A model generated the notes under the pieces. It saw nothing but the letters and a program-made list of their open reading frames with translations. It made no database searches and had not been told where the DNA came from. From Fulvimarina manganoxydans (GTDB taxonomy: Bacteria; Pseudomonadota; Alphaproteobacteria; Rhizobiales; Rhizobiaceae), in assembly GCF_900176465.1 (NCBI RefSeq), contig NZ_FWXR01000002.1:62001-126000 (forward strand): DNA of 64,000 bases. The letters run 5' to 3'. Position 1 is the first letter of the stretch, and the number at the start of each line of letters is the position of its first letter. A program made the position numbers and the translations under genes. Below are positions 36,899 through 48,337 of the stretch, piece after piece.

Positions 36899-37176
36899 TG
36901 GCGAAGCGACCAAGACGGCTCATCGAACAACAGGTCACGGTCGAGTTGAGCCTCGACGAGTTCGAAGACGAAGTCATCCGCGATGAGTACGAGGCGCGGT
37001 TTGGCGCCATGGCGGCGATTGAGCCGCGCAATGCTGACCGCCTCGCCGAACTGATTGCCGAGGGCGCGACCGACGAAGCGCTCGACCTCCTGCGCGAGAT
37101 CGCGCCGGACACCCTCTACCCATCCACCATCAAGCGCCTGGTCGCCGACCGGCAGCATCAGCGGAGCCTTGCCTGA
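36898..37176 (+). CDS. Hypothetical phage protein (92 aa)
   Basis: Starts MAKRPRRLIEQQVTVELSLD. Acidic and helical (ELIAEGATDEALDLLREIAP). Both ends overlap neighbours (TGATG). The immediate downstream gene is the sliding clamp, so a replication-linked role is possible, but no motif shows it. Confidence 0.5.
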   Translation: MAKRPRRLIEQQVTVELSLDEFEDEVIRDEYEARFGAMAAIEPRNADRLAELIAEGATDEALDLLREIAPDTLYPSTIKRLVADRQHQRSLA

Positions 37177-38333
37177 TGTTCGATTTCACCATCCCACGCG
37201 CCGATTTCCTGGCTGCCGTCGAGCGCATCGAAAAGCTCTCGCCACCAAAGGCCACGGTGCCGATCCTGTCTCATTGCCTGATCGCCCTTGGCGAGGACGG
37301 CACGCTGACAATCACCGCCACCGACTTGCAACGCAAGGGCGTTGCCACGACGCGAGCCGAGATCCAAACCGGCCACGGCGCTGTCTGCGTCTCGACCGTC
37401 CATCTGGCGACAACCCTCAAGCGCGTCAGCGCCGACAGCGTGATGTTCACGGTCGACGATCGCGAGGCGCTGCTCAAGTGCGGCCGGTCCAAGATCAAGA
37501 TGCCGACGCTGCCGGCTGTCGATTTCCCCGACATTCGCAAAGAGGCGATCGGCGGAAGCGTCATGCGAATGGCTGGCCCCGACATCGAGCGGATCGTCTC
37601 TGCCTGCGCCTTCGCGATGGAGAAGAGCGAAATCCGCTTTCACCTCAAGGGCGTTTATCTGACGAGCGAGGGAGACAAACTGACGGCAGTGGCGACGGAC
37701 GGGTACAAACTCGCCCTGGTCAGTCAGTCAATGCCGGAGGGCACGCACGACCTGCCGCCGTCCATTCTCCCGGATGCCCTGATCGTCGCACTCGCGCCCT
37801 TCACGAAGTCGCAGACTGTGGACGTGACGATCGGCGAGAGCTTCGCCGAGTTCGCCACGGACGGCTATTCGCTGACTTCTCGTCTAGTGGATGCGACCTA
37901 TCCCGACTTCCGGCGGGTCGTTCCGACTGACCAGCCGCTCGTTGTCAGGGCAGATCGAGAGGCGCTGATCGCTTCGATCCGTCGTGTCGAGACGTTTGCC
38001 GGCGGCGGCGAGCGTGAGATCGCCTTCATCGTCACGCCCGACACGCTTCGGCTTGTCGCGGCTTCGGCCGCGACGGGCGAGGCTGAAGACGAGATGGAGG
38101 TCGACGGCGACGCCGACATGCTCATCGGCTTCAAATCGGACGTGATCTTGCTCTCGCTCCAAAGCCTCGATTGCGACGAGGTGGAGATCAAGCTTCGCGA
38201 CGGAAGTTCGCCCGGCGTCCTGATCGATCCCGGTGACGACAGCCGTCTGGTGGTCGTCATGCCGTACCGCCTCGGCGCCGCGACCATGCAAGCCGTCAAT
38301 CGCGGCGTGCCTTCCATGATGGAGGCGGCGTGA
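37176..38333 (+). CDS. dnaN: Phage-encoded DNA polymerase III beta subunit (sliding clamp)
   Basis: 385 residues. All three clamp domains are present: the opening FLAAVERIEKLSPPKATVPI, the central KGVYLTSEGDKLTAVATDGY (158-177), and VDATYPDFRRVVP (238-250). The C-terminal VMPYRL (361-366) corresponds to the host VLPMRL partner-binding end, but 19 extra residues follow it, which is unusual. The clamp encircles DNA and tethers polymerases and repair enzymes. Phage clamps of the bacterial type are uncommon and suggest that the phage controls its own replisome. It overlaps both neighbours, so it is firmly part of the phage operon. Confidence 0.92.
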   Translation: MFDFTIPRADFLAAVERIEKLSPPKATVPILSHCLIALGEDGTLTITATDLQRKGVATTRAEIQTGHGAVCVSTVHLATTLKRVSADSVMFTVDDREALLKCGRSKIKMPTLPAVDFPDIRKEAIGGSVMRMAGPDIERIVSACAFAMEKSEIRFHLKGVYLTSEGDKLTAVATDGYKLALVSQSMPEGTHDLPPSILPDALIVALAPFTKSQTVDVTIGESFAEFATDGYSLTSRLVDATYPDFRRVVPTDQPLVVRADREALIASIRRVETFAGGGEREIAFIVTPDTLRLVAASAATGEAEDEMEVDGDADMLIGFKSDVILLSLQSLDCDEVEIKLRDGSSPGVLIDPGDDSRLVVVMPYRLGAATMQAVNRGVPSMMEAA

Positions 38334-41879: not shown

Positions 41880-43519
41880 CCCTAACCCTCCGTCCATACC
41901 AGCGCAAAAGTCTTGATGCTCTCTATGGCTATTGGGAGACCGAGCGCGGTTCGCCTCTCATCGTGCTTCCGACCGGCGCCGGCAAGTCGCTCGTCATCGC
42001 CAAAATGGTGGAAGAGCTCTTGGCGCAGTTCCCTGATCTTCGGGTGGCGATCGTCACCCATTCCAAGGAGCTGATCGTTCAGAATTATCGGGAGCTGATC
42101 GGCCTGTGGCCGGCGGCGCCCGCCGGCATTTATAGCGCCAGCGTCGGCCGCCGAGAGACGCATTCCCGCATCCTCTTCTGCGGCGTCCAGTCGGTCTACA
42201 ACAAGGTGGACCTGATCGGGCCGCGCGATCTGATCATCGTGGATGAGGCTCACCTTATCCCGCGTGACAGCTCGACCATGTACGGCAAGTTCTTCGCGAA
42301 CATGGCCGAAATCACCGCCGACATGCGCGTCTGCGGACTAACGGCGACACCCTATCGAATGGACAGCGGCCTTCTCGCCGAGGGGCCGGGCGCGATGTTC
42401 GATCGAATCGTCTATGAGGCCAATGTCGGCGATCTGATCGAAGGTGAATATCTCTCGCCGCTGATCTCCAAGGCGTCGGCCGCTCAGATCGATCTCAACG
42501 GTATCGGCACCAGGGCGGGCGACTTCATTTCGTCGGACATGGAGCGCGCGGCTATGGCCGACGGTCTGGTCGAACGGGCCGTTGCCGAGCTCGTGGCCTA
42601 TGGCCAGGACCGGCGGGCATGGCTCGCCTTCTGTTCCGGCGTCGATCATGCGACGGCCGTTCGCGATGCGATCCGCGCTCACGGCATTGCCGCTGAGACC
42701 GTCCATGGTGCGATGAAGCAGGGCGAACGCAACGGGGTCATCGAGCGGTTCCGCCGAGGCGAGATCCGATGCCTGACATCGGTCAACGTCCTGTCGATCG
42801 GCTTCAACGTCCCGCATGTCGATCTGGTGGCGCTGATGCGCGGCACGAAATCGACCGGCATGTATGTCCAGCAGGTCGGCCGGGGCTTCCGCCGCGCGCC
42901 TGGCAAGGAGAACGCGTTGATCCTCGACTTCGCGTCCGTGATCCGAATGCATGGGCCGGTCGACGCCGTATCGGTCCTGCCGAAAAAGAAAGGTGCGAAG
43001 GGCGAGACCGAGAAGGTGACGGTCAACGATGTTCGGGCCAAGGAATGCCCGGACTGCGAAAGCCTGGCGGCGCTGAACGCGAGAACCTGCAAGGTCTGCG
43101 GCCACGAGTGGCAGATCGAGGTGAAGCCCAGCCATGAGGCCGAGGCGGATGCGACGACGGGCATTCTGTCGTCAGAAAAGGTGCCGCCGCAGTCCATCCC
43201 GGTCCTGCGCTGGGATTGGAAGCGGTGGAAGAAGGAGGGGTCGCCGGACAGCGTCCGCATCACCTATGTCGCCGGGCTCAACACCTATATCGAATGGGTA
43301 TGCCCCGAGCATGGCGGCCGTGCCGGCGAGAAGGCGGCGAACTGGTGGTCGGAGCACGGGGGCGACATGCCGCCGCCAAGAGATGCGGACGAGGCATTGG
43401 AGCGGCGAGGCGAGGCCACCTTGCCCGCCACCATCACCGTTCGACCGGCCAAGCACAATCCTCGCTATTTCGACATCGTGGGCCGGTCCTTTGCGGCCGC
43501 GCAGGGGAGGGCGGCATAA
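41876..43519 (+). CDS. DEAD/DEAH helicase, RadD-like, with zinc finger
   Basis: 547 residues. Q-motif RPYQRKSLDAL, Walker A VLPTGAGKSLVIA, DEAH-box IIVDEAHLIPRD, motif III GLTATPYRMDSG and motif VI QQVGRGFRRAPGK are all present. A four-Cys finger follows (ECPDCESLAAL...TCKVCGHEW). The C-terminal 110 residues form an extra domain with WDWKRWKKEGSPD and NTYIEWVCPEHGG, resembling phage/RadD-type helicases with SSB-like DNA contacts. It probably remodels recombination or replication intermediates. It starts with ATGA and ends with TAATG into the DnaA-like gene. Confidence 0.88.
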   Translation: MTLTLRPYQRKSLDALYGYWETERGSPLIVLPTGAGKSLVIAKMVEELLAQFPDLRVAIVTHSKELIVQNYRELIGLWPAAPAGIYSASVGRRETHSRILFCGVQSVYNKVDLIGPRDLIIVDEAHLIPRDSSTMYGKFFANMAEITADMRVCGLTATPYRMDSGLLAEGPGAMFDRIVYEANVGDLIEGEYLSPLISKASAAQIDLNGIGTRAGDFISSDMERAAMADGLVERAVAELVAYGQDRRAWLAFCSGVDHATAVRDAIRAHGIAAETVHGAMKQGERNGVIERFRRGEIRCLTSVNVLSIGFNVPHVDLVALMRGTKSTGMYVQQVGRGFRRAPGKENALILDFASVIRMHGPVDAVSVLPKKKGAKGETEKVTVNDVRAKECPDCESLAALNARTCKVCGHEWQIEVKPSHEAEADATTGILSSEKVPPQSIPVLRWDWKRWKKEGSPDSVRITYVAGLNTYIEWVCPEHGGRAGEKAANWWSEHGGDMPPPRDADEALERRGEATLPATITVRPAKHNPRYFDIVGRSFAAAQGRAA

Positions 43520-44016
43520 TGAACCCTCCGCCACCAAACCGGCGCTCAGTCGCCGGCATTCCGAAAGAGCTTCTCGCGACGGCGCCGAGAAAATGGATGC
43601 CGAACGCGATCGGCGTCAGGGTGCGCGTGATCGATCCGAAATGGATCGAAGAGTGGCATCTGGAGCAGGAAGCTATCGCGGCTTGGGAGGCGCTGATTGC
43701 CGAGCGCCAGCAGGACATCAGAAGCCATATCGAAAGGGTCGCCGATATCATCGCGGGGCGATCGGAGGGTGTCGTGACGCCATTCGAGAGAACGATCGCG
43801 GAGCTCGACGCCATCATGCGGCGACGCGGCATCACGTCGGATGAGCTGTTCGGGCCATCCCGCAAGCGGGCCATCGTTGAGGCGCGCGCTGACTGCTACG
43901 CCTTTCTGCAAAAGAAGGGGTGGAGCCTTCCCCGCATCGGCCGCATGTTCCGCAAGGATCACACCACCATCCTGAACGGCATTCAGCGCCGGCGGGAGAC
44001 CACCAATGCCGCGTAG
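43519..44016 (+). CDS. Stand-alone DnaA domain IV-like DNA-binding protein
   Basis: 165 residues. The C-terminal 55 residues match DnaA domain IV: SRKRAIVEARADCYAFLQKK corresponds to the basic loop and first helices, and IGRMFRKDHTTIL (139-152) carries the DHTT signature (147-150) that reads the DnaA box. The N-terminal 110 residues are helical and unrelated to the DnaA AAA+ domain, which is missing. In the phage it lies one gene before the primase-helicase and 3 kb before a perfect DnaA box. An initiator or DnaA competitor role is plausible. The start overlaps the helicase stop (TAATG). Confidence 0.82.
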   Translation: MNPPPPNRRSVAGIPKELLATAPRKWMPNAIGVRVRVIDPKWIEEWHLEQEAIAAWEALIAERQQDIRSHIERVADIIAGRSEGVVTPFERTIAELDAIMRRRGITSDELFGPSRKRAIVEARADCYAFLQKKGWSLPRIGRMFRKDHTTILNGIQRRRETTNAA

Positions 44017-44353
44017 CTCCGATCACTCGACCTGTGCCGTCTGTGGGCGGCGCGGGACCGGCCTCGGATATTCCGAGCCCAGGCAACCCTTCCGCCCGCT
44101 CTGGCTCTGCGACGACCCAGATTGCATCCAGATCGCCAAGGACAGCTATTCCATGCCCCAGGACGACTTCAACCGGATCGAGCGGATGGCGCACCAGGAC
44201 GCCGGCCATGCGCTAGAGCGCTATTGCGACCGGATCGGCAAGACCGATTTCCGCGATTTTACCCAGGACGAGTTCGAGGGCGCGATGGAAAGCGTCTTCG
44301 CCGAATATCACGAGGCCATGAAGGGCCGGCTCAAGAACGAGGCGCCGTTCTGA
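44006..44353 (+). CDS. Phage zinc-ribbon-like protein
   Basis: 115 residues. The N-terminal half has CAVCGRRGTGLGY, then LWLCDDPDCIQIAK, a four-Cys ribbon. The C-terminal half is helical and acidic (DFTQDEFEGAMESVFAEYHE). It resembles short phage proteins next to primases; a role in replication is inferred from position only. Confidence 0.65.
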   Translation: MPRSSDHSTCAVCGRRGTGLGYSEPRQPFRPLWLCDDPDCIQIAKDSYSMPQDDFNRIERMAHQDAGHALERYCDRIGKTDFRDFTQDEFEGAMESVFAEYHEAMKGRLKNEAPF

Positions 44354-46482
44354 TGGGCGCGGCAGAGGCAATCGCAACCCAGCGCGAGGCGCTGTGGAAG
44401 TCCGGCTACCGCCCGGTCCCGGTCTACAATATCGACGCGCGGGTCAATTCGCCCGGGAAGCAGCCGAAGGGGTTCGCGTGGCAGCGCGAAGCGCTCTTGG
44501 ACCCGCCAGGATGCGTCGCGCGGCCACCGGACGGGGACGCCCTGAACACCGGCGTCATGGCCAATGGATATCGGGTCGTCGATCTCGACGTGGATGATGG
44601 AGCCGTATCAGATCAACTGATGCGGCTTTCTCTTTCTCTTCTCGGCCAAGCGCCCATGCGGTTCCGCGAGAACAGCGGCCGCCGGCTTCTGGTCTACCGC
44701 GCTGCCCATGGGGAACCGGGCAAGCGATCGATTAAGGGCGCACTTGGAAAGGTCGAGGTGCTGGGCAAGGGGCAGCAGTTCGTCGCCTATGGCAAGCATC
44801 CATCGGGCGCCGATCTTTGCTGGGAGCGTCCGCTCGAGGATTGGCCAGCGGAGGATTTGCAGCCGGTCAGTGAGGATCAGATCGGCGAGTTTCTGGCCAG
44901 GGCCGCCGAATTGATCGGCAGTGCGGAGCACGCGCGCGACGTCGTGCCCTTCCGGCTCGGCGAATACACGGCCAACTCGCCGACAGGCCTTGGCGAGATC
45001 GACCACCTGTTGAGTTTCGTGCCGCCGGACAGCCCCTATGAGGAGTGGGTTTCGACCCTCATGGCCGTCCATGCGGCGACGGGTGGATCGTCTGACGGCC
45101 TCGAGATCGCCGACAACTGGAGCCGGCGGGGATCGAAATACAAGCCGGGAGAGGTGGCGAAGAAGTGGGGATCGTTCCGATCGACCGGCATCACCGGGGC
45201 AACTCTCGCCGAGCTTGCCCGCCAGCATGGCGCGGACCTGTCAGCCATTCGCATCGCTCACATGCCGGAGGACCCCGAATGGAAGGCGATGGTGGAGCAC
45301 GGGCGCCAGGTCGCGCGGACGATCAAGGCGCCGCGGGCCGGACAGATCAGGCACTATGTCGAGGACGACGACGGCAACGTCTTCGACGAGGACGGTAATG
45401 CGGCGCCGGAAGAGGTTGCGGAGGTCGAGCGTCAACGGCGAGTCGCGGCGAGATCGGACCTCGAATGGTTCGATGACGTTCGGCCGGTGGTCGAGGTTCC
45501 GTACATCGTGAAGGGGCTTCTCGATCATGGGTCCATGTCGGTGGTTTACGGACCATCGAACAGCGGCAAGACGTTTTTCGCGCTCGATCTCGTTTTCAAC
45601 ATCGCGATCGGCAATCAGTGGCGGGACAGGCGCGTTCACGGCGGGTCGGTTCTCTACCTTGCCGCAGAGGGTGGAAACGGCATCGCCAATCGCATTGCAG
45701 GCCTGCGGAGCGTCTTCGGCTCTGTCGACGTGCCCCTGGCGCTCAGACGTGCGGGCCTCGATCTCCTGAAGCCCACGGCTGATCTGAACTACGTCATCAC
45801 GCTCGCCGAGGAGGTGGCGCGGCGCGAACCGTTGGCTGTGATCGTGATCGACACCCTGTCGCGCGTGATCGCCGGGGGCGATGAGAACGCGGCTTCCGAC
45901 ATGACCGCCTTCATCAAGAACATCGACGTGATCCGCCAGAAGACCGGCGCGCACATCATGATCGTCCACCACACCGGCAAGGACGCGGCGAAGGGCGCGC
46001 GCGGCCACTCGTCGCTTCGCGCGGCAACCGACACCGAGATCGAGCTCTCGGTCGACGATTTCGAAAACCGGGTCGCCAAGGTCACGAAGCAGCGCGACTA
46101 CGAGGGCGGCGAGGAGTTCGTCTTCGGCCTCAAGTCGGTGTTCCTCGGCATCGATCAGGACGGAGACAACGTCACCACATGCGTCATCGAACCCATCGAG
46201 AAGGTGACGACGGGCGGCGAGGACGCGCCGCCGATCGAAGTGTGTCGGGCCATGCTGAAGGAGATCGACGCCGGCTGGACGTCGAACAATCCGCTCTCGA
46301 CGGCGCCCCAGAGCAAGCACTCTGGGCGGTACGCGGCGCGCTATCTGGCGACCACGTTCAAGCTCCCGCAGGGCAAGGTTCAAAAGCTTCTGGAGGGGTG
46401 GATCGATGGCGAAATCATCGTCGTCGACATGGTCGATTTCCATTCCAAGAAGCGCGGCCTTCGTGTTCGGGAATGGATTTAA
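44353..46482 (+). CDS. Bifunctional primase/polymerase with RepA-like helicase domain
   Basis: 709 residues. An N-terminal prim-pol domain (1-200) has the metal motif RVVDLDVDDG (74-83), the GRRLLVYR strand and FVAYGKHPSG. A PriCT-like domain (205-290) follows, with YEEWVSTLMAVHAATGG. A RecA-like ATPase domain (375-620) has Walker A GPSNSGKT (400-407), Walker B AVIVIDTLSR, His pair 539-540 in MIVHHTGK and GARGHSSLRAATD. The C-terminus has a small winged-helix-like part. The protein should prime and unwind at the phage origin, which follows it. TGATG couples it to the ribbon gene. Confidence 0.88.
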   Translation: MGAAEAIATQREALWKSGYRPVPVYNIDARVNSPGKQPKGFAWQREALLDPPGCVARPPDGDALNTGVMANGYRVVDLDVDDGAVSDQLMRLSLSLLGQAPMRFRENSGRRLLVYRAAHGEPGKRSIKGALGKVEVLGKGQQFVAYGKHPSGADLCWERPLEDWPAEDLQPVSEDQIGEFLARAAELIGSAEHARDVVPFRLGEYTANSPTGLGEIDHLLSFVPPDSPYEEWVSTLMAVHAATGGSSDGLEIADNWSRRGSKYKPGEVAKKWGSFRSTGITGATLAELARQHGADLSAIRIAHMPEDPEWKAMVEHGRQVARTIKAPRAGQIRHYVEDDDGNVFDEDGNAAPEEVAEVERQRRVAARSDLEWFDDVRPVVEVPYIVKGLLDHGSMSVVYGPSNSGKTFFALDLVFNIAIGNQWRDRRVHGGSVLYLAAEGGNGIANRIAGLRSVFGSVDVPLALRRAGLDLLKPTADLNYVITLAEEVARREPLAVIVIDTLSRVIAGGDENAASDMTAFIKNIDVIRQKTGAHIMIVHHTGKDAAKGARGHSSLRAATDTEIELSVDDFENRVAKVTKQRDYEGGEEFVFGLKSVFLGIDQDGDNVTTCVIEPIEKVTTGGEDAPPIEVCRAMLKEIDAGWTSNNPLSTAPQSKHSGRYAARYLATTFKLPQGKVQKLLEGWIDGEIIVVDMVDFHSKKRGLRVREWI

Positions 46483-46498
46483 GGTAGCATTCGTGGCT

Positions 46499-46617
46499 TG
46501 CGGAAGTCTGCGGAGGTCCAAGAAAAAAGCCAATTATTTCAATGCGGAAGTTTGTTGCGGAAGTGCGGAGGTTGTATGTGTAAGTCATTGAAATCATTTG
46601 CGGAGGTCTGCGGAAGT
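46499..46617. repeat. Seven TGCGGARGT iterons: probable phage replication origin
   Basis: The 9-mer TGCGGARGT occurs at 46499, 46509, 46543, 46556, 46564, 46599 and 46609, all in the same orientation. It forms three clusters: a pair 10 bp apart, a group of three 13 and 8 bp apart, and a pair 10 bp apart, separated by 34-35 bp. The spacers (46521-46542 and 46575-46598) are AT-rich and could melt. The array starts 17 bases after the primase-helicase stop, and no gene covers it. Iterons next to a replication gene are the classic sign of an origin. Confidence 0.75.
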
Positions 46618-46639
46618 CTGGCTATACCCTAAAGGGTTC

Positions 46640-46666
46640 CGCCGGGCGCCTCGGAGCGCCCCGGCG
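46640..46666. repeat. Hairpin next to iterons
   Basis: CGCCGGGCGC and GCGCCCCGGCG pair with one bulge around a six-base loop. No T-run follows, so it is not a terminator. It sits between the iterons and the DnaA box and may be a priming or protein-binding structure of the origin. Confidence 0.5.
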
Positions 46667-46686
46667 AGAGGGAGGACGAAGGGGCG

Positions 46687-46695
46687 TTATCCACA
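46687..46695 (+). promoter_or_regulatory. Perfect DnaA box
   Basis: TTATCCACA is the exact consensus DnaA-binding site. It lies about 70 bases after the last iteron and 99 bases before the next gene. It could be bound by host DnaA or by the phage's own DnaA-domain-IV protein. Confidence 0.7.
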
Positions 46696-46793
46696 CCCGC
46701 CGATCTTCCCGTCCGGCTTCGTTTCTGCCATCATCCGAATTGCTCACCACGCCTGCCACGGGCTCCCTCACCGCCACCCCGAGGAAGCCCGAC

Positions 46794-47435
46794 ATGAAGA
46801 AAGCCGAGACTGCTTCGACGTCACAGGACCGTTCGCCATCGCTCCGTGAGCGAATGAGCGACACGCAAGTCGATCACGACATTCTCGACATCGCGGCACG
46901 TTTGCACTGGTACGCCTTGACCGTTCCGGCGCAGAAGGAGTTCGTCGCTCAGAAGATCCTGCGGCGATATGGGCTCCGCACGTTCGTCCCCTTGCGCCGC
47001 GAATATCGGCACGCCAGCGCGAAGGCGAAGCGAACCCGGCAGCCGAAGCAGGAATTCTGCTTTCCACTCGCACCACGCTACCTGTTTGCCGGCTTCACCC
47101 CTGGGCGGCCTCTCTGGTTCGATCTGTTCTCGCTGCCATGCATCTCTGGCGTGGTCGGCATTGATGGGCGGCCCATGCCGATCGTCAGGAAGGACATGAC
47201 CCGGCTCGTCAGAAAGACGGCGACTGGCATCAATGCGCCGGAGGCTCAGAAATTCATGCGGACCCATCACGAGTTCTCCGTGGGCGATGTGGTCCGCGTT
47301 ATGGATGGCCCGTTCGAGGGGCTATCGGTGCCGGTGGTTGAGATCACAGGCGGATTGGCTCGTCTTTGCCTCTCGTTGTTCGGCGGCGCGGTGGATGGCG
47401 TCGAGGTGAGGCTTGACTGGCTTGAGGCGGCGTGA
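46794..47435 (+). CDS. NusG/RfaH-like transcription antitermination protein
   Basis: 213 residues. An NGN domain (about 36-145) starts RLHWYALTVPAQKEFVAQKI and has APRYLFAGF near 93; a KOW domain (160-205) has FSVGDVVRVMDGPFEGLSV. The first 35 residues are a polar extension. The ATG at 46794 has GAGGAAG seven bases upstream. NusG homologues bind RNA polymerase and change pausing and termination; a phage paralogue just upstream of a terminator and of all late genes suggests that it switches on late transcription by read-through. Family is secure, specific role inferred. Confidence 0.88.
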   Translation: MKKAETASTSQDRSPSLRERMSDTQVDHDILDIAARLHWYALTVPAQKEFVAQKILRRYGLRTFVPLRREYRHASAKAKRTRQPKQEFCFPLAPRYLFAGFTPGRPLWFDLFSLPCISGVVGIDGRPMPIVRKDMTRLVRKTATGINAPEAQKFMRTHHEFSVGDVVRVMDGPFEGLSVPVVEITGGLARLCLSLFGGAVDGVEVRLDWLEAA

Positions 47436-47534
47436 GATGGATGGGCTCAGGACGACCCCGGCCATTGCGTGAATGCATGTCAGTGCTCGGACCCAGCCCC
47501 AGCGTTGAGCTTGGCGGTATGGATGGATGTTTAT

Positions 47535-47564
47535 GGCCTCGCCGATGCGGGGCCTTTTTTGTTT
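47535..47564 (+). terminator. Intrinsic terminator between early and late genes
   Basis: GGCCTCGC (47535-47542) and GCGGGGCC (47547-47554) form an 8-bp stem with one GU pair and a four-base loop, followed by six T. It lies 100 bases after the NusG-like gene and ahead of the packaging genes, where an antitermination control point would be expected. Confidence 0.78.
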
Positions 47565-47588
47565 CTCCCAAACATCACGAGATCGGTC

Positions 47589-47765
47589 ATGGCGCTCACC
47601 GCGAAGCAGAGCCGCTTCGTGGAGCAAGATCATGAAGCTTCTGAACCGTTTGTTCGCCAGGATGATCATCCGGGCAATGCTCAAGCGCGGGCTGTGATGC
47701 CCGACCCCAACCCCGCCGCCTCCGAAATCCTCCCATACGATGAGCGGACGGAGAGGTTTGAGTGA
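47589..47765 (+). CDS. Short ORF with a terminase-small-subunit-like N-terminus
   Basis: 58 residues. The opening MALTAKQSRFVEQ closely resembles the start of Terminase_2-type small subunits (LTxKQxRFVE), but the rest (from about residue 14) does not continue that family. It may be a decayed or chimeric terminase gene, replaced by the Nu1-type subunit at 48469. An ATG inside it at 47697 (22 residues, MPDPNPAASEILPYDERTER) overlaps a 21-residue frame in another phase, so the true product is uncertain. Confidence 0.4.
   Translation: MALTAKQSRFVEQDHEASEPFVRQDDHPGNAQARAVMPDPNPAASEILPYDERTERFE
47632..47697 (+). CDS. Possible 21-residue basic amphipathic peptide
   Basis: A short basic peptide starting MKLLNRLFARMIIRAMLKRG, with six basic residues on an amphipathic helix. 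Its TGA overlaps an ATG at 47697 (TGATG), which runs 22 codons to the start of the tail-protein gene, again TGATG. The chained overlaps are typical of translated phage genes, but the size makes the call weak. Confidence 0.3.
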   Translation: MKLLNRLFARMIIRAMLKRGL

Positions 47766-48337
47766 TGCTGATCCTCAAGATCACAGGCGATGGGCTGCCG
47801 AAGCTGAACCGTGCTCTTGATGAGCTTGGCAACGAGACGGTGGCCCACAAGGCATATCGCAGGGCGATCAACAAGATCGGCGATCAAGCCCGAACCCGCG
47901 TAAAGCGAGAGCTGGCTGCCCAGGTGGGGCTCACGCAAAAGAAGCTCGTCGAACTCGGCGGTTTTCGCGTGACCCGAGCCAACTACTCGGCGCTCGAATA
48001 CAAGATCAGCACGTCCGGCAGCCCGATCCCTTTGAAGGAGTTCAGCGCGAAGCAGTTCTCCTACGGCGTTCGTGCAAAGCCATGGGGGCGCTCGCAACAA
48101 TTTCCGTCTGCTTTCATCTACGCAGGCCGGTGGGATAGCGGCAATGCAATCGCAGACGGCCACGTCTTCAAACGCACGTCGAAGAACTCTTTGCCGATTG
48201 AAAAGCTCTACGGCCCCTCCATCCCCAAAGAGATGGTGCAAGGCGCGACGGCCGCAGCCTTCACCGAGTATGGACCGAAGCTTCGTGAGCGCGTCGAGCA
48301 TGAGCTAAGGCAGATCACTCAAGGCGTGGTCAGCTAG
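47765..48337 (+). CDS. Minor tail protein Z-like (GPZ) tail completion protein
   Basis: 190 residues. The lambda gpZ family pattern is visible: AINKIGDQARTRVKRELAAQ, GLTQKKLVELG, SPIPLKEFSAKQFSYGVRAK, GHVFKRTSKN and LPIEKLYGPSIPKEMV. gpZ-type proteins act at the head-tail joint or tail end. Here the gene is upstream of the terminase genes instead of after the head genes, a rearranged order. The start overlaps the preceding short frame (TGATG). Confidence 0.8.
   Translation: MLILKITGDGLPKLNRALDELGNETVAHKAYRRAINKIGDQARTRVKRELAAQVGLTQKKLVELGGFRVTRANYSALEYKISTSGSPIPLKEFSAKQFSYGVRAKPWGRSQQFPSAFIYAGRWDSGNAIADGHVFKRTSKNSLPIEKLYGPSIPKEMVQGATAAAFTEYGPKLRERVEHELRQITQGVVS

Follow-up and report, generated by a model that had tools for sequence, protein, structure and literature searches.

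Where does a prophage in the genome of Fulvimarina manganoxydans begin to copy its DNA, and which protein begins it? The question arises from a stretch of 64,000 nucleotides of this alphaproteobacterium (contig NZ_FWXR01000002.1, positions 62,001 to 126,000; hereafter the window), in which the gene for a 709-residue primase-helicase, P0004, is followed directly by an array of short direct repeats, and a gene for a small protein ending in DnaA domain IV, P0003, lies upstream. A preliminary description, made from the sequence of the window alone, had taken both proteins, the repeats and a nearby DnaA box for one replication module. Our comparisons with related loci indicate that bases 44353-46637 are very probably a self-contained phage replication-start module, consisting of a one-protein initiator with its origin directly behind its own gene. 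Neither the DnaA-domain-IV protein nor the DnaA box is conserved as part of this origin. The earlier interpretation was thus half right, and the half that stood is more general than could be seen from the window.

The primase-helicase, its iterons and its C-terminal domain

P0004 carries a primase and a helicase in one chain (Prim-Pol, PriCT_2 and AAA_25 domains; Table 1). Its RepA-type helicase domain was assigned by Pfam (AAA_25, E 1.2e-39), and the Pfam scan gave no Toprim match. The sole PDB sequence match at E<=0.01 was 1g8y, 'regulatory protein RepA' (E 4.5e-6, residues 383-553), which we take to be RepA of RSF1010. Together, the three domains and the PDB match bear out the earlier naming of P0004 as a prim-pol/RepA-type protein. 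Directly after the gene, and again as first described, lie seven exact copies of TGCGGARGT with AT-rich spacers, starting on the + strand at 46499, 46509, 46543, 46556, 46564, 46599 and 46609. An eighth, isolated copy starts at 45417, and none of 100 shuffles of the window reached a total of eight. The tandem pair TGCGGARGTNTGCGGARGT has two sites in the 4.8-Mb genome, both of them within the window. The repeats behave like iterons.

Relatives of P0004 keep repeats in the same place. A search with the protein returned ten viral loci (nine distinct, our own included) and two named genomes, Chelativorans sp. and Aquamicrobium aerolatum. Arrays of TGCGGARGT or TTACGGARGT stood behind the stop codon in eight of these loci; L010 had another repeat, and L009 ends too early to show the DNA behind the helicase stop. 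Among the helicase relatives from a profile search (the best 80 of 129, our own included), this DNA was nearly always rich in repeats, the words of which differed from locus to locus (CGGTAGAAA, GTCGGGTTT, TACGATTT, CTACATATT and others). We scored 28 non-redundant loci, our own included, which were obtained from 82 by leaving out seven without a stop codon and three with <250 nt behind it and by merging near-duplicates. The repeat score behind the stop lay above all 200 shuffles in 26 of the 28, and in 20 this region was the most repetitive part of the locus. Repeat arrays were also seen by eye behind the helicase genes of Roseobacter phage CRP-823 and Rhizobium phage 16-3 and of genomes of the window's own order (19 loci, with L116 left out because it reaches a contig end). 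These relatives tie the array to the helicase.

Which part of the protein goes with the word itself? We compared 47 loci (48 minus one near-duplicate). The ATPase domain of P0004 matched all 46 of the others, and its C-terminal domain had BLAST homologues in four: L012, L018, L021 and L123. At least two copies of CGGARGT in the 300 nt behind the stop were present in exactly five of the 47, namely these four and our own. The ATPase match of L123 scored lower than any other in the set (31% identity), yet L123 shares both the C-terminal domain and the word. Over 46 loci and 1035 pairs, with L090 left out as it has no repeats, repeat similarity followed the C-terminal domain when the ATPase was controlled for (partial rho 0.243, reached by 0 of 999 permutations), and the converse value, for the ATPase given the C-terminal domain, was 0.001 (reached by 524 of 999). 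In the sequences compared, the word tracks the C-terminal ~100 residues of P0004, not its ATPase.

Recruitment from either side gave a similar picture. Five new loci were recruited by the domain alone; L142 and L150 have CGGARGT arrays, and L148 and L149 have variant repeats of the GGCGGAGA type, L148 together with two copies of CGGARGT. A scan of viral DNA for the array word (80 of 97 stretches read, four of them already known: our own, L018, L019 and L020) found the C-terminal domain encoded in 48 of 80 loci, or 44 of the 76 new ones, a count without a control-word baseline. It was detected with a hidden Markov model (HMM) built from eight sequences, which include the five positive loci of the 47-locus set, so that on that set the model is informative only for the 42 negatives. 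In all 48 word-recruited loci the domain formed the C-terminus of its open reading frame (ORF); it lay on the same strand as the array in 45 and ended <=150 nt from it in 26. The primase was more variable. Ten representatives of the 16 clusters of word-recruited proteins were scanned, and AAA_25 was present in all ten, together with Prim-Pol in five, a Toprim-type domain in two and no recognised primase in three. In this ten-protein sample the pairing of helicase and reading domain is constant and the primase varies. A tblastn search of the phage collection with the C-terminal domain found nothing, and a search of plasmids gave one weak match.

The preliminary description had staked its proposal in part on conservation of the 9-mer in related phages. 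The word proved to be kept with the reading domain and mostly replaced by another repeat elsewhere, which leaves that proposal standing on this point. The C-terminal domain of P0004 most likely recognises the iterons to start phage copying, as far as can be read from these comparisons. A model of the last 120 residues, built from a six-sequence alignment, has three helices and two strands in winged-helix order (predicted local distance difference test, pLDDT, 78; predicted template modelling score, pTM, 0.61). In a second-look structural alignment, LexA and an archaeal protein gave the best score, Z 8.2, with many winged-helix regulators below, although a Z of ~8 can be background. The model supports, without proving, a winged helix.

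Several observations weigh against a replication origin read by this domain. L090 has no repeats behind its helicase gene, and the score of L027 was reached by 1 of 200 shuffles. L151, with a partial match to the C-terminal domain, carries a different repeat. No domain was detected in 32 of the 80 array loci, and of these only 13 with <900 nt before the array, and L195, which looks like a coding repeat, are accounted for; the want of a baseline for the word scan counts on the same side. The permutation test was run on rough alignments, and one of its ATPase values (0.05 for L106-L107) is clearly an artefact. The fold match is weak, with a Foldseek E never below 0.18, and the C-terminal domain belongs to no Pfam family. 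The IHF-like site behind P0004 departs from the consensus at one base, which is unremarkable in itself, since 18 sites with <=1 mismatch occur in the 64-kb window. Finally, the turning point of the cumulative GC skew lies near 41 kb and not at 46.5 kb.

Some arrays have features of their own. Contigs L170, L177, L178, L181, L186, L207, L212, L217 and L218 have arrays without a detectable domain; the frames beside several such arrays resemble one another when inspected by eye, a hint of a different type of replicon, or of a gene on the opposite strand, that uses TGCGGARGT. L029 and L093 have a second small cluster of the main-array word ~2.6-2.9 kb behind the helicase stop, reminiscent of P4, which has a second repeat region. 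The repeat word also occurs within the last 40-70 nt of the helicase coding sequence in L024, L025, L028, L030, L032, L034, L044 and L087.

Other elements of the region and a proposed start of replication

Two further elements recur behind the helicase gene. A CCYWWWRGG palindrome, ACCCTAAAGGGT in our window, was present in 33 of 47 regions (4.57 expected), often flanked by inverted repeats of the local word; the palindrome of phage 16-3, at 336, was counted as missing since the region ended at 300 nt. IHF-like sites occurred as exact matches in 13 of the 47 loci (0.50 expected) and with <=1 mismatch in 31 (8.78 expected), and L012, L018 and L021 have two such sites 57 bp apart. A relaxed IHF pattern fell inside the arrays of 33 of the 48 domain-positive loci, a figure that has no control baseline. 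The hairpin that had been described behind the iterons is present, though the folded stretch that includes it (46618-46682) was no better than shuffles (z -1.0), and in all two stretches of the region gave this result.

How might these parts work together? From the computed domain content, the position and conservation of the array and the link between word and C-terminal domain, we infer an origin activity made up of binding, bending, melting and priming. The C-terminal domain would bind the TGCGGARGT iterons placed directly behind its gene, and host IHF may bend the DNA between iteron clusters in many relatives (here there is one imperfect site). The RepA-type helicase would then assemble and open the AT-rich spacers, the archaeo-eukaryotic primase (AEP) would make the first primers, possibly at the palindrome, and a polymerase would take over, perhaps with the phage's own sliding clamp.

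The same repeats could serve as operators, at which the C-terminal domain or another phage protein would control the promoter of the next operon (the NusG-like gene and late genes) and not replication. The array does sit between replication genes and packaging genes. In addition, the consulted parts of two papers describe GafA as binding the RcGTA promoter upstream of TerS (PMC9638019), and GafY as acting at the CcGTA promoter of Caulobacter gene transfer agents with IHF and GafZ-mediated antitermination (PMC11150451), so an IHF-bearing promoter region would look similar to this array. However, the array goes with the helicase and not with the next gene; the genes that follow differ between loci (by eye). 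No sigma-70-like promoter was found at 46300-47800 in a scan that covered that promoter type alone, and an initiator would better account for a reading domain linked to a primase-helicase. We regard an operator function as quite improbable, and favour the replication-start module.

Table 1. Features of the replication-start region and its surroundings (positions in the window)
Feature	Position	Strand	Remarks
Putative one-protein initiator P0004, 709 aa	44353..46482	+	Prim-Pol residues 15-165; PriCT_2 217-289; AAA_25 372-545; C-terminal reading domain (predicted) 613-709
C-terminal domain of P0004, residues 613-709	46189..46479	+	Modelled in winged-helix order; among the 47 loci compared, homologues are confined to those with CGGARGT arrays
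Seven TGCGGARGT iterons in three clusters (2, 3, 2), all in the same direction	46499..46617	+	Exact matches; position and arrangement shared by relatives
IHF-like site TTTCAATGACTTA, one mismatch to WATCAANNNNTTR	46581..46593	-	Same distance from the stop codon as the site in L012 and L018
Palindrome ACCCTAAAGGGT, CCYWWWRGG element	46626..46637		Common in relatives
GC-rich hairpin	46640..46666		No T run behind
Exact DnaA box TTATCCACA	46687..46695	+	Not conserved in relatives
P0003, 165 aa, ends in DnaA domain IV, intact DHTT	43519..44016	+	Pfam Bac_DnaA_C (PF08299), residues 97-156, E 3e-12
DUF6511 protein	44006..44353	+	Between the DnaA-domain-IV gene and the putative initiator gene; missed in the preliminary description
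NusG paralogue, antiterminator-like	46794..47435	+	Between array and packaging genes; start codon uncertain; missed in the preliminary description
DNA polymerase III sliding clamp, phage-encoded	37176-38333		Early region; phrog_947

The DnaA-domain-IV protein and the NusG paralogue

If P0004 is the initiator, what is the role of P0003? The protein had been introduced as 165 residues with the DnaA signature DHTT at the C-terminal end and no AAA+ domain, and the Pfam match agrees (Table 1). We consider an AAA+ domain absent because, besides Bac_DnaA_C, only a weak HTH_38 match was found. P0003 retains SLPRIGRMFRKDHTTILNG, which is close to the corresponding host DnaA segment; a GafY-like protein of the host has DRSS. 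Searches with P0003 gave two weak matches in the phage collection and, among viral contigs, the protein itself alone. A single-sequence model of P0003 was poor (pLDDT 56) and was not used.

The preliminary description had P0003 bind the DnaA box and work with the iteron origin, or recruit or block host DnaA for it. The retained DHTT of the reading helix would suit such a role. The exact box TTATCCACA is where it had been placed and is the only exact box in the window, although at least one such box appeared in 10 of 100 shuffles; TTATNCACA occurs once in 24324-76662, the extent of the prophage record given below, and lies 69 bases behind the last iteron. HdaB, a stand-alone DnaA-related protein, is cited, by title, as reportedly stimulating replication initiation, and iteron plasmids often use host DnaA. 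Moreover, DnaA-domain-IV ORFs were found in 7 of the 80 array loci besides our own prophage, all seven among the 48 with the reading domain.

Beyond our locus the association does not hold up well. None of the 39 other viral records of this helicase family had a DnaA C-terminal domain (PF08299); many of these records are fragments, and seven have the same reading domain. The seven ORFs in array loci (six with DH[ST]T, one with DRTT) lie 1.3 to 10.4 kb from the array, and none of these loci has a DnaA box at the array. Boxes are rare: TTATNCACA occurred behind the helicase in 2 of 47 loci, our own and L023 (0.36 expected). Of 48 array loci, two had one close to the array, our own and L242 (0.007 expected per window). 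This leaves a box in 1 of 46 and 1 of 47 of the others. The idea that DnaA boxes accompany DnaA-domain-IV proteins also failed, as TTATNCACA was absent from all eight other DnaA-domain-IV stretches. GafY, which is the same protein as HdaB, has been proposed not to act on oriC replication, according to the consulted part of PMC9632790. We therefore consider a joint role of P0003, DnaA box and iterons unlikely. Of the self-contained module as first proposed, the iterons with the primase-helicase stood, with the array position and the link between word and domain conserved more than chance would give; the DnaA-domain-IV protein and the box did not.

P0003 may instead form a late-gene switch with the NusG paralogue, as activator and antiterminator in the manner of GafY and GafZ, and merely lie beside the origin. 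We examined ten DnaA-domain-IV loci, mostly from the window's own order (nine, our own included, plus L103), with L097 (host), L101 and L102 excluded from the count as GafY-like by their DR[ST] motif. A NusG paralogue stands beside the stand-alone DnaA-domain-IV gene in six of the ten, our own included, and all six extra NusG paralogues of 11 genomes lie within ~3 kb of such a gene, in genomes that were chosen for DnaA domain IV. By comparison, a NusG-like gene was present in 1 of 81 other helicase loci (L030), within the stretch examined. In the parts of the literature consulted, GafY is a small protein homologous to DnaA domain IV that acts in gene transfer agent biogenesis (PMC9632790), and gafA of Hyphomicrobiales mostly has a small DnaA-like gene in front of it (PMC9638019).

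Other observations fit such a switch less well. P0003 has DHTT where the host GafY-like protein has DRSS, and no GafZ domain (DUF6456) was found among the prophage proteins scanned, a subset of all. Nor does a GafZ gene adjoin P0003, whose neighbours are a ResIII-type helicase and the DUF6511 ORF. The seven other array loci with a DnaA-domain-IV ORF lack a NusG-like gene in the stretch read, as do four of the ten DnaA-domain-IV loci. Among the matches listed, a second NusG of any kind occurred in ~34 of 150 genomes. We hold a late-gene switch as a tentative but serious possibility, somewhat short of an even chance.

The most likely role of P0003 itself, though with low certainty, is that of an accessory regulator, which may act together with the NusG paralogue on late transcription. 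We favour an accessory and probably transcriptional role because P0003 is not conserved in the origin, because of its NusG neighbourhood and because of the parallel with GafY. A combination of these ideas, in which P0003, the lone DnaA box between iterons and late operon, and the NusG paralogue make a switch at the origin's edge that senses host DnaA or competes with it, is a long shot; if true, it would time the change from replication to late transcription. Both the late-gene switch and the module of P0003 with DnaA box and iterons concern P0003, and could hold beside a P0004-driven origin.

Two genomes of the window's own family have a DnaA-domain-IV gene directly adjoining a NusG paralogue gene (L158:5822-6765 and L159). 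A tblastn search of the phage collection with the NusG-like protein of the window found nothing. The host GafY-like DnaA-domain-IV protein is encoded at L097 (G000:C10:80916-81101); a frame that overlaps its end resembles GafZ when inspected by eye, and a gene transfer agent regulator may thus be present in the host.

Known systems, the prophage and what the origin would mean

The P4 alpha helicase belongs to superfamily 3 (SF3), and RSF1010 works with RepA, RepB' and RepC and with iterons. According to the consulted parts of PMC4234260, P4 alpha unites a Toprim primase, a helicase and a winged-helix domain in one protein, which binds origin repeats and then unwinds and primes. The same parts describe ORF904 of pRN1 as a single protein that joins an AEP primase, an SF3 helicase and a winged helix at the C-terminus; its origin follows immediately after the gene and has a large stem-loop and no iterons. 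RSF1010 is described there as spreading the functions over three separate polypeptides (PMC4234260).

P0004 resembles P4 alpha in having primase and helicase in one chain and repeats at the putative origin; its winged helix is a model, and its binding to the repeats is predicted. It differs in having Prim-Pol and a RepA-type AAA_25 helicase, not Toprim, although Prim-Pol and Toprim both occur, in different proteins, next to this array word. As with ORF904, the array, whose origin role is deduced from sequence, lies directly behind the primase-helicase gene, but the region has iterons and no large stem-loop. With a primase other than Toprim and with iterons in place of the stem-loop, the P0004 module belongs, by these features, to neither type. 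The helicase part matches RepA of RSF1010; in contrast to RSF1010, the functions of P0004 are in one chain. P0003 likewise shares with GafY/HdaB a DnaA domain IV without an AAA+ domain, but in P0003 this domain stands at the C-terminus behind ~95 extra residues and retains DHTT, the protein belongs to a prophage, and the host has a GafY-like gene of its own. With P4 alpha, pRN1 and GafY/HdaB as precedents for parts, the initial statement that no described system has this set was too strong. No description of this origin family was found in the open-licence literature, hence weak evidence of absence, and among the matches listed there for the 9-mers none was, by title, a phage-origin paper.

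By its gene content the stretch reads as a temperate prophage. A viral record in IMG/VR (L003; 52,339 bases) contains the same helicase at 100% identity and, by an extrapolated offset, would run from 24324 to 76662 of the window, past the window's end. The genes ahead of the origin region include an integrase, thymidylate synthase, Sak4, a Cas4-type exonuclease, the sliding clamp, helicases and a methylase; repressor-like and Cro-like genes gave weak matches. The genes of the origin region are followed by those for neck, terminase, lambda-family portal, protease and capsid. An Rfam scan of the window gave no match, and a tRNA search of the window found none.

What would such an origin mean for the phages that carry it? 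The DnaA-like protein would be set apart from the origin, and its role could be addressed as a clear question in its own right. If our reading of P0004 and its iterons is right, the array belongs to a large phage origin family in which the C-terminal domain changes in step with the origin word, the helicase remains constant, and the primase is Prim-Pol or Toprim. Such a family would offer many examples of a reading domain matched by nature to its DNA word, from which a recognition code, the prediction of cross-firing between origins and small laboratory replicons might be developed.

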